Source: Bacillota bacterium
GTDB taxonomy: Bacteria > Bacillota > UBA994 > UBA5500
DNA: 33,230 nt
Reading direction: 5' to 3'
NCBI GenBank assembly: GCA_012735505.1
Contig: JAAYHE010000047.1
Location: forward strand, 1 to 33,230
Positions 13,915 through 33,216 of the stretch are shown piece by piece (positions within the stretch are counted from its first letter, which is position 1; each line of letters opens with the position of its first letter). Under the pieces are notes generated by a model that saw nothing but the letters and a program-made list of their open reading frames with translations, had not been told where the DNA came from and searched no databases. The translations under genes and the position numbers were made by a program.

Positions 13915-13956
13915 AGCGGCGTGAAACGAGGGACTCTCCCTCGTTCCAGCGCCGCT
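13915..13956 (-). terminator. Two-tier hairpin overlapping the rny stop codon
   Basis: The outer arms AGCGGCG (13915-13921) and CGCCGCT (13950-13956) pair over 7 bp. The inner arms AACGAGGGA (13925-13933) and TCCCTCGTT (13937-13945) pair over 9 bp around CTC. The transcribed strand continues TTTTCC. Its 5' side contains part of the rny TAG. It could be a partial terminator, an RNase Y autoregulatory target or a 3'-end protector; the ymdB ribosome site lies about 20 nt beyond. Confidence 0.6.
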
Positions 13957-15472
13957 ATTTAGCATAGTTTACAGCTCTCGTTTCCCTGATTACAGTTACT
14001 TTTATCTGACCAGGGTAATCCAATTCCTTTTCTACTTTCTTGGCAATATCATGTGCAATGCGTACCGAAGCCAGATCGTCTACCTTTTCTGGCTTAACTA
14101 TTATGCGGATCTCTCGCCCAGCTTGAATGGCGTAGGTCTTATCAACGCCTTCGAAGGAGTCAGCTATTTCCTCTAGCTTTTCTAAGCGCTTGATATAGCT
14201 CTCTAAACTCTCCCTCCGGGCGCCAGGACGAGCAGCTGATAAAGCATCGGCCGCTTGTACCAAAACTGCCTCGATGGTTTCAGGTTCAATGTCATTATGG
14301 TGGGCTGCTATAGCATGTACAACCGCCGACTGTTCGCGATACTTTCTAGCTACATCGGCGCCGATCTTTACATGCGATCCCTCAACCTCATGGTCGATAG
14401 CCTTACCAATGTCGTGCAACAAGCCAGCTCTGCGAGCCACGTTGACATCGGCTCCTAATTCTGCCGCCATAATGGAGGCTAGGTGAGCAACCTCGATAGA
14501 ATGCTTCAATACATTCTGCCCATAACTTGTCCGAAAACGAAGGCGACCCAATAGCTTGATCAATTCTACATTAAGACCATGCACGCCAACCTCTAAGGCG
14601 GCTTGCTCGCCTTCCTCCCGGATGCGATTTTCTATTTCGCGTTGTGCTTTCTCAACCATCTCTTCTATGCGAGCAGGGTGAATACGACCGTCTGCCACAA
14701 GACGCTCTAAAGCTATACGCGCCACTTCCCTACGGATAGGATCAAACCCAGAGATAATTACGGCTTCTGGGGTATCATCAATAATCAAATCAATACCAGT
14801 TAAGGTTTCCAAGGTACGTATATTGCGCCCTTCGCGGCCGATAATCCGCCCCTTCATCTCGTCATTAGGTAATTCCACCACAGAAACTGTCGTTTCTGCC
14901 ACATGGTCAGCTGCACAACGCTGGATAGCAAGGGTGATAATTTCCCTAGCTCTTTTATCAGCTTCTTCTCTGGCCCGTGCTTCAGTGTCCTTAATCAGCA
15001 TCGCTGCTTCATATTCTATCTCTTTTCTAATGCTGTCCAAGAGCATCTGCTTTGCTTCCTGCGAACTTAGGCCAGAAATACGCTCCAGCTCGGCCAGTTG
15101 CTCTGCAATAATTTCATCTATTTTGGCTTTCTGCCGGTCTAGCTCATTGCTCTTGCGCAGCACTTGCTCCTCTTTTTTCTCCAACTGATTCGCCTTACGC
15201 TCCAGTGTTTCGTCCCGCTGCATAACCCGTCTTTCTAAACGTTGCAATTCAGAACGGCGCTCGCGAACTTCTTTATCAAACTCTAAGCGTAGCCGATGCG
15301 CTTCTTCCTTGGCTTCTAGCAATAATTCCCGTTTCTTTGCATCAGCCGCCTTCGTTGCTTCTTCAACGATCCGACGCGCTTCTTGCTCGGCGCCGCCAAT
15401 CTTTTGTTCAGCAATATGCTTGCGGTATAAGAAGCCGGCCACGCCAGCCAGCGGAATACCTATTACAATCAC
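13955..15472 (-). CDS. rny: Ribonuclease Y
   Basis: RNase Y, the membrane-anchored endoribonuclease that starts mRNA decay in Firmicutes. From the GTG at 15472 there are 505 residues: a short hydrophobic N-terminus (1-16), a long charged coiled coil (about 25-175), a KH domain with [12 protein letters not shown] at about 208-219, and an HD domain with the catalytic LHDIGKAID at 352-360. The N-terminus is uncertain. The GTG has no ribosome site and cuts the membrane helix short. The only strong site (AAAAGGGAGG, 15511-15520) is followed 8 nt later by an in-frame ATA at 15502, which would add ten residues ([10 protein letters not shown]) and complete the helix. ymdB and spoVS follow. Confidence 0.95.
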
Positions 15473-15505
15473 TGCCCATGAAAATATCTGTCCAGTACCT
15501 ATAAT

Positions 15506-29024: not shown

Positions 29025-29918
29025 CTAGTTTTCCAATAAACCAAAATTTAGCAAAGCCTGCCGCACGACTTTTTGTTCTGCCGCGGGACAAGGCAAAAGG
29101 GGCAAACGCGGTGCGCCCACAGAGACACCAATCATATTTAAGGCAGCTTTTAGGGGTACTGGATTGGTAGTCACAAACATGGCACGACAAACGGGCAAGA
29201 TTTCATAATGCCATTTTCTAGCTGTATGTATTTCGCCCCGCTTGTAGGCCCGTACCATCGCCTTGAGCTGACGTCCGATCAGGTGAGACGCAACACTGAC
29301 CACGCCATGTCCCCCTACTGCTAAAATAGGCAGCGTCAGGCTATCATCGCCGCTGTAGATGACAAAATTAGCAGGAGCCTGCTCTGCGATAGCGCTCACT
29401 TGATCTAGATTACCGCTTGCTTCCTTAACTCCAAAGATATTTTCTATAGCTGCCAGGCGCAAAACGGTCTCTGGCAATATGTTGCTAGCAGTACGGCCCG
29501 GGACGTTATAGAGCAGAATGGGTAACTGGCAGGCAGACGCTACAGCGTGAAAATGTGCATACATTGCATCTTGCGATGGTTTATTGTAATAGGGTGCTAC
29601 CAACATTATTCCGTGCACACCAGAGGCAGCTGCACTTCTGGTGAGGGCAATAGTTTCCGCCGTATCATTTGTTCCGGTACCTGCAATCACCTTAGCTCTA
29701 CCCGCCACCTTATCAACAACATGAGAATATATGGCAACTTTCTCTTGGAATGATAGTGTAGCTGCTTCACCGGTAGAACCGGTAACGACTAGGGTGTCAG
29801 TGTCATTCTGTAGCAGATGCTCGATCAAGGCATCCATAGCTGTCCAGTCGATAGCGCCGGTAGCGTCAAAGGGGGTAACCATGGCTGTAAGTATTTCCCC
29901 AAAATAGTCCTTATACAT
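29025..29918 (-). CDS. dapA: 4-hydroxy-tetrahydrodipicolinate synthase
   Basis: 297-residue class I aldolase that condenses pyruvate and aspartate semialdehyde, supplying the precursor for both lysine/diaminopimelate and spore dipicolinate. The Schiff-base Lys165 is in GVKEASG, the proton-relay Tyr137 in YNVPGRT, and a substrate-binding Arg142 is present. The proton-relay loop reads GSTGE (Ser48, Thr49) where many enzymes have GTTGE, a conservative change. The ATG at 29918 has AGGAGG 7 nt upstream. It follows dapG by 11 nt. Position after spoVFA-spoVFB-dapG identifies it as the sporulation-operon copy, though it may be the only one. Confidence 0.96.
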   Translation of the reverse strand: MYKDYFGEILTAMVTPFDATGAIDWTAMDALIEHLLQNDTDTLVVTGSTGEAATLSFQEKVAIYSHVVDKVAGRAKVIAGTGTNDTAETIALTRSAAASGVHGIMLVAPYYNKPSQDAMYAHFHAVASACQLPILLYNVPGRTASNILPETVLRLAAIENIFGVKEASGNLDQVSAIAEQAPANFVIYSGDDSLTLPILAVGGHGVVSVASHLIGRQLKAMVRAYKRGEIHTARKWHYEILPVCRAMFVTTNPVPLKAALNMIGVSVGAPRLPLLPCPAAEQKVVRQALLNFGLLEN

Positions 29919-29929
29919 TGATCAACCTC

Positions 29930-31174
29930 CTAGCTCTTACTCGTCACTAGAGCTGGTTCAGCGATACTACCCAGCTCTGCTAACCGAAATTCTTGATGGA
30001 GAGCATTCACCGCTGTAACCAACTGGGATTGATCCACTAAACATGAAATCGTCATATGGGAATCACTGGTCTGCAAAATTTCAACTCCTGCCTCATACAG
30101 AGACCGACATACCGTTGACATGATGCCTGGTAGGCCACGCATGCCAACACCAACCACCGATACCTTGCTACAACCAGCGCGTATTTTGCGTTCTGCCGGG
30201 AGCTGATCTAATGCGGATTGAGCGCGCCCGAGAAGGTGAGCGTCAACAACAAATGTTTTGTTTTTCGGACTAACGTTTATTAGGTCTACACTGACGCCGT
30301 GTTCAGCTAAGGCGTTGAATAAACGGCAATCGAAGCTAGCGTCTGCAATTTGTGGCTGGACTACGATCTGCACCAGATCGACGCGGTAGGCGACGCTAAC
30401 GACCGGATAAGAACGTCTTCCTTCGTAACTAGTAGCAGTAGTTATGACCGTACCTGTATGCTCGTTTGCAGGAGAACGAACTACAAGACGAGTATTATTG
30501 TGCATCGCCATCTCTACCGCCCGCGAATGAACGACCTTGGCTCCTTCGTACGCCATCTGCAGCATTTCTTGGTAATCTACGAACGCTAGCACTTTGGCTT
30601 CTGGCACTATTCGTGGATCTGCCGTCATAATACCAGCAACATCGGTATATATTTCTACTACCTCTGCTCCTAGCGCAACTCCTAAGGCTACAGCTGTTGT
30701 ATCACTACCGCCTCGGCCGAGGGTCGTTATTTCACCGTCGGCACAAGCTCCCTGAAAGCCTGCTACCACCACAACATAGCCGTCGGCTAGCAATTGTTGA
30801 ACTCGGTCAGGGTGCACATTGACGATTCGCGCATCACCATGCACCCTGTCCGTAACGATACCCGCTTGCCTTCCAGTCAGCATTATCGCTTTGCAGTGCT
30901 GGCGCAGTTTAGCTGTAAAGACCCCAGCTGAAATAATCTCTCCACAGGCCAGAACCAAATCCAAGTCTCGCCCTTTGAGGCAAGCTCCGTCGTTATTAAC
31001 AAGACTAATCAATGTATCCGTGGCATAAGGGTCCCCCATACGACCCATGGCAGATACAACCACCACTACCGAATAACCTTCTTGTCGCGCATGTAGAACA
31101 CGAGATATAGCGATCTCCCGGCTGGCTGGGGTAGCAACAGATGAACCACCAAATTTCTGTATTACGATCGGCAC
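29930..31174 (-). CDS. dapG: Aspartokinase (DapG type)
   Basis: 414-residue aspartate kinase, the first enzyme of the aspartate pathway. The amino-acid kinase domain begins IVIQKFGGSSVA and includes VVVVSAMGRMGD, GRGGSDTTAVAL and VEIYTDVAGIMTADPRIV. Two ACT domains cover about 260-414. The start is a GTG at 31174 with GGGGAGG 9 nt upstream; a longer frame to 31213 has no ribosome site. In B. subtilis dapG encodes the diaminopimelate-sensitive isozyme and lies in the dipicolinate operon as spoVFA-spoVFB-asd-dapG-dapA. Here asd is absent between spoVFB and dapG. Inhibitor specificity is not readable from sequence alone. Confidence 0.94.
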   Translation of the reverse strand: MPIVIQKFGGSSVATPASREIAISRVLHARQEGYSVVVVVSAMGRMGDPYATDTLISLVNNDGACLKGRDLDLVLACGEIISAGVFTAKLRQHCKAIMLTGRQAGIVTDRVHGDARIVNVHPDRVQQLLADGYVVVVAGFQGACADGEITTLGRGGSDTTAVALGVALGAEVVEIYTDVAGIMTADPRIVPEAKVLAFVDYQEMLQMAYEGAKVVHSRAVEMAMHNNTRLVVRSPANEHTGTVITTATSYEGRRSYPVVSVAYRVDLVQIVVQPQIADASFDCRLFNALAEHGVSVDLINVSPKNKTFVVDAHLLGRAQSALDQLPAERKIRAGCSKVSVVGVGMRGLPGIMSTVCRSLYEAGVEILQTSDSHMTISCLVDQSQLVTAVNALHQEFRLAELGSIAEPALVTSKS

Positions 31175-31221
31175 GCTTATATACCTCCCCGCCATCCCTG
31201 GACTTATTGCCACTGCAGTGC

Positions 31222-31800
31222 TTACCGCTGAATTAGGACTGGCTGTAACTGCTTGCCGACAAGTGCGTGTCGTGCAGCTTCCACCAAAAGTTTAGAATCG
31301 GCTACGAGTGAAGTAGGCTTGCCATGCGGATCATCCTGGCCGAAAGGCACGAAAAACACATTGCGAGCAGCTAATAACAAACCTATATTCTTGGCGTTCA
31401 GACCTAAACCATCGTTAGTAGATATAAACAATAAGACCGGCCGTCCATTGCGCAAGTGTGCTTTGACTGCCATAGTTACGGCCGTATCGGTAATGGCGTT
31501 AGCTAGCTTTGCTATGGTGTTACCAGTGCAAGGCGCGACTATAATCAGATCGAATAGACGATTTGGGCCGATGGGTTCAGCCTCGGTGATACTATGGATG
31601 ATATTCTTACCCGTGATGGCGGTTAGTGCCTGATGCCAAGAAGCAGCATCACCAAAGCGGGTAGTTTGGTTATAGGCAGTTTCTGACATGATCGGTTGGA
31701 CTTCGGCACCAGCTGCAACCAGTTCCCGTAGTGGCGTCATGATCTCTTGAAAGGTGCAGAATGAACCTGTCATGGCAAAGCCGATACGCTTTCCTTTCAT
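31222..31800 (-). CDS. spoVFB: Dipicolinate synthase subunit B
   Basis: 192-residue flavoprotein-family protein, the B subunit of dipicolinate synthase, which oxidises dihydrodipicolinate to dipicolinic acid in the mother cell. The flavoprotein-type pattern is clear: KRIGFAMTGSFCTF at the N-terminus, APCTGNTIAKLANAITDT in the middle, and ISTNDGLGLNAKNIG near 126-140. The ATG at 31800 follows the spoVFA stop by 2 nt with a GGGGGAGGGG stretch upstream that lies inside the end of spoVFA. Both subunits adjacent and in the usual order make the call secure. Confidence 0.96.
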   Translation of the reverse strand: MKGKRIGFAMTGSFCTFQEIMTPLRELVAAGAEVQPIMSETAYNQTTRFGDAASWHQALTAITGKNIIHSITEAEPIGPNRLFDLIIVAPCTGNTIAKLANAITDTAVTMAVKAHLRNGRPVLLFISTNDGLGLNAKNIGLLLAARNVFFVPFGQDDPHGKPTSLVADSKLLVEAARHALVGKQLQPVLIQR

Positions 31801-31802
31801 GA

Positions 31803-32699
31803 TTAGTAACCCCTCCCCCCATAGTTCTTTTTGATGATTCGCGGCAGCAACTCACCTAGAATACGGCCAGCAGAACGAGCCGCTACTTTTCCTGGTAGGC
31901 TCGGCGCCAGCAGTGCCTTTCTACCCAGCCTCTGAGCCGCCACAAAATCTACTCCCCCAGGACTTGACGCTATGTCAATGATGACTACTTCCGGTTTAGT
32001 CAAAGCAAGCAGTTGCCTTGGCAAGACCAGAGCAGGAACCGTGTTGAAAATAAAATCACAACTTCCTATCACATCTGCCAATGACGTGAAACTGATTGCG
32101 TGATAGCCAAAGACATGGGCCCTTGCCAAATCAGCTGTGGAACGGGCTGCTACAATAACTCTCGCCCCTAATCCATCCAAACTATGGGCTAAAGTAACGC
32201 CACAACGCCCAAAACCTAATACGAGACTGGTGCTGCCGTGAATGGTAATATCCGATTCTGTCATCGCCATCTGCAAAGCTCCCTCGGCCGATGGAACAGA
32301 ATTCAAGATAGCTAGATCATCAATATCAGCGATCTCTACTAATCGCCAACCATAATTGGACGCCAGCTCTTTCAAGTGAGCATTAGCTACCCCTGTCAAA
32401 ACTAAAAGGCCGGTTTGCGTCAAAGCACACATTTCTGGAGTAAGTACCAACTTGTCATCTGCGTATTGCGCCCCCACAGTCCCATCGCTAGCGAGGCCGG
32501 ACATAGGTAGAATAAGGACGTTGGCCCAAAGTAATGCTTCTGTAATCCCCACCAACTCACAGGGCACTAAGCCGACGGCATTATCAAAGCCGACTGCTTT
32601 TACGGCGGCGCCTGCCTCTAGAAGGGCCGGGATATAGAAAAGGCTACGAGCATCGCCACCGAGCACTACAATGCGCATGCCAGCTAAACTAGGTGACAT
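31803..32699 (-). CDS. spoVFA: Dipicolinate synthase subunit A
   Basis: 298-residue catalytic subunit of dipicolinate synthase, related to NAD(P)-dependent 2-hydroxyacid and S-adenosylhomocysteine-type dehydrogenases. The N-terminal half begins MRIVVLGGDARSLFYIPAL. The Rossmann fingerprint GFGRCG is at 162-167, followed by ARVIVAARS. The ATG at 32699 has GGAGG 7 nt upstream; a GTG two codons earlier is too near the site. First gene of the operon, preceded by a SigK-like promoter. This supports mother-cell expression late in sporulation, when dipicolinate is loaded into the spore core. Confidence 0.95.
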   Translation of the reverse strand: MSPSLAGMRIVVLGGDARSLFYIPALLEAGAAVKAVGFDNAVGLVPCELVGITEALLWANVLILPMSGLASDGTVGAQYADDKLVLTPEMCALTQTGLLVLTGVANAHLKELASNYGWRLVEIADIDDLAILNSVPSAEGALQMAMTESDITIHGSTSLVLGFGRCGVTLAHSLDGLGARVIVAARSTADLARAHVFGYHAISFTSLADVIGSCDFIFNTVPALVLPRQLLALTKPEVVIIDIASSPGGVDFVAAQRLGRKALLAPSLPGKVAARSAGRILGELLPRIIKKNYGGRGY

Positions 32700-32830: not shown

Positions 32831-33076
32831 TTAGTCGCCTAGAGGAAAATCTAAAATGATTACATCAGTGCCAATCCGCTTGATGGCCGCCCAGGGTATC
32901 ATAATTTCGTCTCCGCCGTGTCCCCCGAAAAACGCTCTCTTTTCTACCACTAAAGACTGCAGCTGACCGGTATTGGCATCGATAACCAAATCATAGACGC
33001 CTGCCCACCCCAACTTTTTCCCATCATGATAGTTGATTAGCTCTTTCGCGGTCAATTCGCTATAGTATATAGCCAC
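32831..33076 (-). CDS. ymxH: YlmC/YmxH-family PRC-barrel sporulation protein
   Basis: Small PRC-barrel protein of the YlmC/YmxH family: SELTAKELINYHDGKKLG, then a DLVIDANTGQ turn, ending in a short IIPWAAIKRIG-type segment (here IMIPWAAIKRIG). Function in sporulation is by association; the gene often lies near the dipicolinate operon. The start is uncertain. The ATG at 33097 has no ribosome site. The GTG at 33076 (81 residues, listed here) follows AAAGGAG by only 3 nt. The ATA at 33070 lies 9 nt from that site and would make the N-terminus align with the Met-x-x-Ser-Glu start usual in the family. The gene sits alone between terminators. Confidence 0.85.
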   Translation of the reverse strand: MAIYYSELTAKELINYHDGKKLGWAGVYDLVIDANTGQLQSLVVEKRAFFGGHGGDEIMIPWAAIKRIGTDVIILDFPLGD

Positions 33077-33139
33077 CCTCTCCTTTCTGTTTATCATCTA
33101 TTACTAATAGATGCAGCAGGCGACGTTTCTAGCATAAAC

Positions 33140-33167
33140 AAAAAGGGGCTGTCGCACTAACAGCTCC
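33140..33167 (-). terminator. Terminator upstream of ymxH-like gene (first of tandem pair by position)
   Basis: GGGGCTGT (33145-33152) pairs with ACAGCTCC (33160-33167) over 7 of 8 positions around CGCACTA. The transcribed strand continues TTTTTG. It would serve a minus-strand gene beyond the right edge of the window. Confidence 0.7.
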
Positions 33168-33176
33168 TGAAAAAGT

Positions 33177-33216
33177 AAAAGACGGCCCCTGGCGATGATG
33201 CCAGGAGCCGTCTTTT
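33177..33216. terminator. Strong, probably bidirectional terminator
   Basis: AAAAGACGGC (33177-33186) pairs with GCCGTCTTTT (33207-33216). After one C/A mismatch, CCTGGC (33188-33193) pairs with GCCAGG (33200-33205) around GATGAT. T-rich sequence follows on both strands. On the minus strand it precedes the 33140-33167 terminator, making a tandem stop for a gene outside the window. Confidence 0.88.

Follow-up and report, generated by a model that had tools for sequence, protein, structure and literature searches.

Layout of the ymxH-like locus

The window, meaning the whole 33,230-nt stretch of DNA that was analysed, carries on its minus strand a ymxH-like gene whose open frame begins at ATG 33097 and ends with the stop codon at 32833–32831. 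The product scores 73.8 bits against TIGR02888 (YlmC/YmxH sporulation protein; cut-off 44.2) and also matches the PRC-barrel family PF05239. The next gene downstream encodes dipicolinate synthase subunit A (31803–32693, NF006162, 331.7 bits), followed on the same strand by dipicolinate synthase subunit B (31222–31800, TIGR02852, 272.9 bits), aspartate kinase (29930–31213, NF006068, 511.9 bits) and dapA (29025–29918, TIGR00674, 339.8 bits). B. subtilis ymxH is set likewise, upstream of dipicolinate synthase and dap genes. With these four genes downstream and a Met two residues before Ser-Glu/Asp, the protein is a true YlmC/YmxH-family member, of the YmxH type, in a dipicolinate/dap operon. The genome's YlmC-type paralog lies at a separate locus (L034), where its ATG is one codon further 5'.

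Candidate starts in the open frame are ATG 33097 (33095–33097), GTG 33076 (33074–33076) and, if it is permitted, ATA 33070 (33068–33070), from which the coding sequence would span 32831–33070 and encode 79 residues plus the stop. On the minus strand, the start region reads CATCTATTAGTAATAGATGATAAAC AGAAAGGAG AGG GTG GCT ATA TAC TAT AGC GAA TTG ACC. The only strong Shine-Dalgarno (SD) sequence in it is AGAAAGGAG (33088–33080), at an aligned spacing of 8 to the ATA and 2 to the GTG. The initial annotation had the coordinates of all three codons right; the AAAGGAG that it took as the ribosome site is the last 7 nt of this SD, and its distances from the last SD base, 9 nt to the ATA and 3 nt to the GTG, hold. 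It had also placed the SD downstream of ATG 33097, as the coordinates confirm. This codon is the first ATG of the open frame and would yield an 88-residue protein with the SD inside its coding sequence, and the 25 nt before it contain no SD match of at least 4 nt with GGAG, GAGG or AGGA.

We surveyed SD spacing in 443 kb of the same genome. Of the 369 ORFs there with 100 aa or more, 163 had an SD of at least 6 nt near a canonical codon; when two such codons shared an SD, we took the one nearest an aligned spacing of 8. The commonest spacing was 7 (51 ORFs), followed by 8 (36), 9 (25) and 6 (20). GTG 33076 is a standard start codon, on the same mRNA as the SD and in the right order, and GTG makes up 31 of the 173 SD-spaced canonical codons in this sample. 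Standing two codons upstream of the ATA, it would add just Met-Ala, giving Met-Ala-Ile-Tyr-Tyr-Ser-Glu-Leu. Its aligned spacing of 2 was nevertheless seen in none of the 163 ORFs; under a cruder rule based on whichever canonical codon comes first in the ORF, that spacing occurred in 2/78. The ATA thus stands at normal SD spacing, with no canonical codon at that spacing, as expected of an AUH (AUA, AUU or AUC) start.

The SD is 9 nt long, a length of match reached or exceeded in 21/369 ORFs of the genome, and it is longer than the SDs of the ATG-starting orthologs in the same-family genomes G002 (locus L002) and G001 (locus L003). Its duplex energy is −16.5 kcal/mol, against −12.4 (L002) and −13.2 (L003), as calculated with a 16S tail whose anti-SD comes from relatives of the same class, G005 and G006, both of which match it exactly; the exact pattern of the 16S 3' tail was not found in the window's own genome. 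We rejected a leader hairpin that hides the SD, since the fold was no better than shuffles (z −0.78; 40/200 shuffles at least as good). The fold predicted for the leader does pair three bases of the SD with a CCU upstream of it, which counts against an AUA start.

Two further features lie upstream. A perfect 9-bp inverted repeat, CATCTATTA-G-TAATAGATG (33113–33095), lies just upstream of the SD. It is conserved in part at L002 and L003 and might act as an operator or a promoter element. At 33165–33215, a terminator-like inverted repeat is followed by a T-rich stretch (by eye).

The ymxH start column in relatives

ymxH matches were present in 53/61 genomes, and the loci of 29 relatives were read (L002–L030); two (L027, L028) were left out of the start-column count as YlmC-type. 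In all 27 remaining YmxH-type loci, the column of the ATA is canonical (19 ATG, 4 GTG, 4 TTG), and the window is the sole YmxH-type locus read that lacks ATG, GTG or TTG there. The same-family orthologs in G002 (74% identical) and G001 (69%) both have ATG at this column; in G003, the third same-family genome, only a YlmC-type paralog was seen. As the initial annotation had anticipated for an ATA start, close relatives thus replace the codon with ATG. It had also given Met-x-x-Ser-Glu/Asp as the start for the family. This fits the ATA, whose column is the start in homologs: position 1 of the TIGR02888 profile is the residue after the ATA, and position 2 is residue 12 of the ORF product.

Relatives that retain a longer N-terminus, which the initial annotation had named as an argument against the ATA, were not seen in the family: an in-frame TAA lies directly before the ATG in G001 and nine codons before it in G002, so the longer N-terminus is not conserved. 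This stop in G001 adds to the lack of an SD in making ATG 33097 an extremely improbable start. The column of GTG 33076 reads AAG in G002 and GGT in G001; given its spacing as well, initiation at this GTG is unlikely.

The near-cognate codon of ymxH is therefore not itself conserved, and it is a recent change, unlike those of infC, rny and sigE (below), because G001 and G002 carry ATG. The ATA was seen in one genome only, in sequence from an assembly, so a wrong base or a minor variant has to be considered, with ATG as the real codon: the genome is in 87 contigs, the species is represented by one copy and both relatives have ATG. A second genome of the same species, sought among genome contigs (from which the genome's own records were possibly omitted), was not found; the one match was a G002 contig, Firmicutes bacterium UBA5500. 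Yet the ORF is otherwise intact, and G001 contig C15 is collinear with the window. Moreover, fliW of the same genome (L047:1394–1392, minus strand) has ACG behind GAGGTGAT at an aligned spacing of 8, where G001, G002 and G003 all have ATG; it appears to be a second lineage-specific near-cognate start. Misreading would then need two independent errors hitting start codons, an argument weakened by the fact that the screen sought such cases. We regard an assembly error as quite unlikely.

A lineage-specific loss of ATG also looks like early start loss, by which the gene would be on its way to a pseudogene and translated poorly or not at all. However, the frame is intact, non-synonymous change is far below synonymous, and the SD is longer, not shorter, than in the two ATG relatives, making this reading very unlikely. 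The dN of ymxH was 0.16 against G002 and 0.22 against G001, with synonymous sites saturated or nearly so; by this comparison, which cannot tell whether constraint lasted past the ATG-to-ATA change, the protein is under purifying selection.

We therefore favour translation of the ymxH-like gene from AUA 33070–33068, probably (about 0.78) producing a 79-residue protein that begins fMet-Tyr-Tyr-Ser-Glu-Leu through SD-driven, IF3-disfavoured initiation. The 9-nt SD would recruit the 30S subunit and position the AUA in the P site for pairing with initiator tRNA, despite a third-position mismatch. IF3 would be expected to disfavour this codon, so that the yield would be a fraction of that from AUG and higher when IF3 discrimination is weak. 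The ATG-to-ATA change would be recent and specific to a lineage in which, judging by sequence, infC, rny and sigE are already started at AUH. Most simply, the AUA would be a recent change tolerated in such a lineage, with the longer SD perhaps compensating for it; it may also have a regulatory role. What the sequence shows is the layout and spacing of the start region, the homology of the start column, purifying selection on the protein and the lack of canonical codons at the SD of several other genes; initiation at the AUA, its efficiency, IF3 dependence and any regulatory benefit are what we infer.

Near-cognate starts at rny and other genes

The window also contains rny, which encodes RNase Y (13955–15502, minus strand; 515 aa from ATA 15502–15500). 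Its product scores 784.1 bits against TIGR03319, for which the cut-off is 454.35. The SD AAAGGGAGGT (15519–15510) has ATT 15505 at aligned spacing 5 and ATA 15502 at aligned spacing 8, and the first in-frame canonical codon, GTG 15472, is 10 codons downstream of the ATA. rny thus appears to start at ATA 15502 (or ATT 15505), as the second AUH-start gene in the window. G001 and G002 have ATA too; in both, a stop precedes it by two codons and canonical codons are absent as far as +15 codons. G003 gave no RNase Y match above the cut-off.

To read this start across the phylum, we used a start-blind rule that takes the best SD of at least 5 nt and then the in-frame codon at an aligned spacing of 6–11. 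All 61 genomes searched had an rny match, 58 of them over the cut-off. Sample 1 comprised 40 loci (30 from this search and 10 fetched), of which 31 were AUH (15 ATT, 8 ATA, 8 ATC), 4 were canonical and 5 had no SD. Sample 2 comprised 65 further loci from a 299-genome search, 25 plus 40 hand-picked among the best-scoring matches listed; the latter were anchored on profile coordinates instead of tblastn, with a narrower search range. Here 28 were AUH (23 ATT, 3 ATA, 2 ATC), 20 canonical and 9 without SD, and 8 had another codon, most of these calls adjoining a canonical codon. By the start-blind rule, rny therefore has AUU, AUA or AUC in 59/105 phylum loci read, in samples that are non-random. 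No ATG, GTG or TTG at all occurs from the upstream stop to +15 codons in 10/40 loci of sample 1 and 6/65 of sample 2. Many loci do offer formal alternatives, either the GTG of GGAGGTG three codons upstream or a nearby ATG (e.g. L199, L200).

We ran the same rule on two control genes. For ymdB, found in 26 of the 30 searched loci of sample 1, it called 10 canonical, 1 AUH (ATT), 6 other and 9 without SD, and by eye a canonical codon stands at the N-terminus in 25/26. For ymxH (30 loci), it called 17 canonical, 1 ATA (the window), 5 other, 3 without SD and 3 without a hit; one further call, an ATC in L010, is internal and false. The retention of AUH as a class at rny, with the third base drifting, suggests selection for weak initiation. 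The single AUH call for ymdB, the gene after rny, comes from L190 in the large-genome relative G035, where AGGAGGAGAGAAAC is followed by ATT with no canonical codon nearby, and it is an AUH candidate of its own.

We also screened the 443 kb of the window's genome with an SD-anchored search and read candidates by hand. At sigE (G000:C80, L058:10789; relatives at L129, L215 and L216), the apparent start reads ATC in the window's genome, ATT in G001, ATA in G002 and ATT in G003. It is AUH in 4/4 family genomes; of the canonical codons nearby, a GTG falls within the SD, as the nearest one upstream, and a TTG follows 3 to 14 codons further down. Over all 41 sigE loci, 16 had no SD of 5 nt, 14 were canonical, 6 were AUH (4 of them the window's family) and 5 had another codon; because the outcome outside the family is mixed, we make no phylum-wide claim for sigE. 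A small Mut7-C-ubiquitin/ThiS-like gene (PF14451; L044:11770–12000 in the window's genome) appears to start at CTG in 4/4 family genomes (9 loci read in all). In L251, L252 and L253, the stretch between −25 (or the stop upstream) and +6 holds no canonical codon; in the window's own genome, a GTG lies within the SD and a TTG occurs 18 codons further up. Two class relatives (L256, L258) read ATA (G005) and ATT (G007) at this gene; G006 and G009 are canonical, and G004 has ATG. infC, matched in 6/7 genomes and read by eye, has ATC in the window's genome, G001 and G003, ATT in G006 and G010, and ATT or ATC in G004. The parallel with infC drawn in the initial annotation is apt, given the apparent ATC start of this gene in the window's genome.

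Judged by SD position and homology, on which these start calls rest, infC (AUC), rny (AUA), sigE (AUC), the Mut7-C-ubiquitin-like gene (CUG) and fliW (ACG) have no canonical codon at normal SD spacing. Near-cognate codons at SD spacing, observed against expected, numbered 10/4.8 in the window's genome, 4/2.3 in G001, 5/2.2 in G005 and 0/2.5 in G022, counts that include chance hits and are weak taken alone. Choosing columns by SD only in 68 gene pairs of the window's genome and G001 gave no rate and was abandoned: 41 were canonical in both, and in most of the other 27 the column was off by one next to a canonical codon or the SD was internal. By hand, four near-cognate genes stand out among the pairs, namely rny, sigE, ymxH and the CTG gene (its column misaligned). 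An ATA candidate before a TrmH-like gene (L052, named by eye) was dropped, with an ATG three codons on. In G005, a BirA-like gene (named by eye) has ATA and another gene has ATT at SD spacing (L136, L143).

Wider meaning and known near-cognate starts

RNase Y is the enzyme that opens mRNA decay. We consider it possible, though short of probable, that near-cognate starts provide, across this part of the Firmicutes, a widespread and conserved layer of control that has largely escaped annotation; infC and RNase Y and, in the window's family, sigE (AUH) and the ubiquitin-like gene (CUG) would be members of an IF3-responsive set coupling initiation fidelity, mRNA decay and sporulation entry, with members such as ymxH and fliW still being recruited. 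Confirmed at the bench, the rny pattern would show that an enzyme central to mRNA decay is kept at a low level by the trick that IF3 and E. coli poly(A) polymerase use, and a link between IF3, mRNA decay and sporulation would become directly testable. The ATG-to-ATA difference of ymxH, with a longer SD and otherwise intact sequence, amounts to a natural experiment in initiation drift. Gene callers in general permit just ATG, GTG and TTG, and therefore near-cognate starts are misplaced without notice, a problem raised for sigR and infC in passages of PMC5472188.

In the open-access literature, we found neither RNase Y nor sigE reported with an AUH start, and no report of such a CUG start or of ymxH at AUA; this absence is weak evidence because only the open-access literature was covered. 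AUA starts are already known from S. aureus infC and ccpN, and ymxH adds another case; the RNase Y and CUG cases are without a report that we found. E. coli pcnB has an AUU start, reportedly described by Binns and Masters in 2002. There, an RNA-decay enzyme is limited by AUU, as proposed here for RNase Y, but enzyme and phylum are unrelated. For B. subtilis rny, passages of PMC10303841 describe an AUG start and autoregulation by mRNA cleavage; the gene is the same, and its expression is restrained in the mRNA leader and close to where translation begins. The difference is the start codon, AUH in 59/105 of our loci.

According to passages of PMC5472188, infC of E. coli and Streptomyces has an autoregulated AUU/AUC start, an AUH codon discriminated by IF3, and infC of the window's genome likewise reads ATC. 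ymxH has no known link to IF3 homeostasis. The same source describes a GTC start repressed by IF3 for Streptomyces sigR, where a non-canonical start keeps down the output of a sigma-factor gene, analogous to the AUH of sigE here; that case is a GTC in another phylum and experimentally proven, whereas the sigE start is read from sequence.

The closest parallels are in S. aureus, for which passages of PMC13009471 describe AUA starts at infC, ccpN and citZ and an AUU start at cvfC1. In poor medium, reporters for ccpN, citZ and cvfC1 reached about 10% of the AUG level, and in rich medium ccpN rose to as much as 30%; the near-cognate start of ccpN is conserved to B. subtilis. Those starts were mapped by Ribo-Ret, ccpN and citZ with reporters as well, whereas that of ymxH is read from sequence in one lineage. 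The long ymxH SD resembles the extended SDs of S. aureus non-canonical starts, a likeness that is only suggestive from one case: there, the extension that aids weak codons is start-proximal, and in ymxH the extra bases are beyond the core, away from the start, which counts against the AUA. Like S. aureus infC and ccpN in that source, ymxH is a Firmicute gene with an AUA behind a long SD at suitable spacing.
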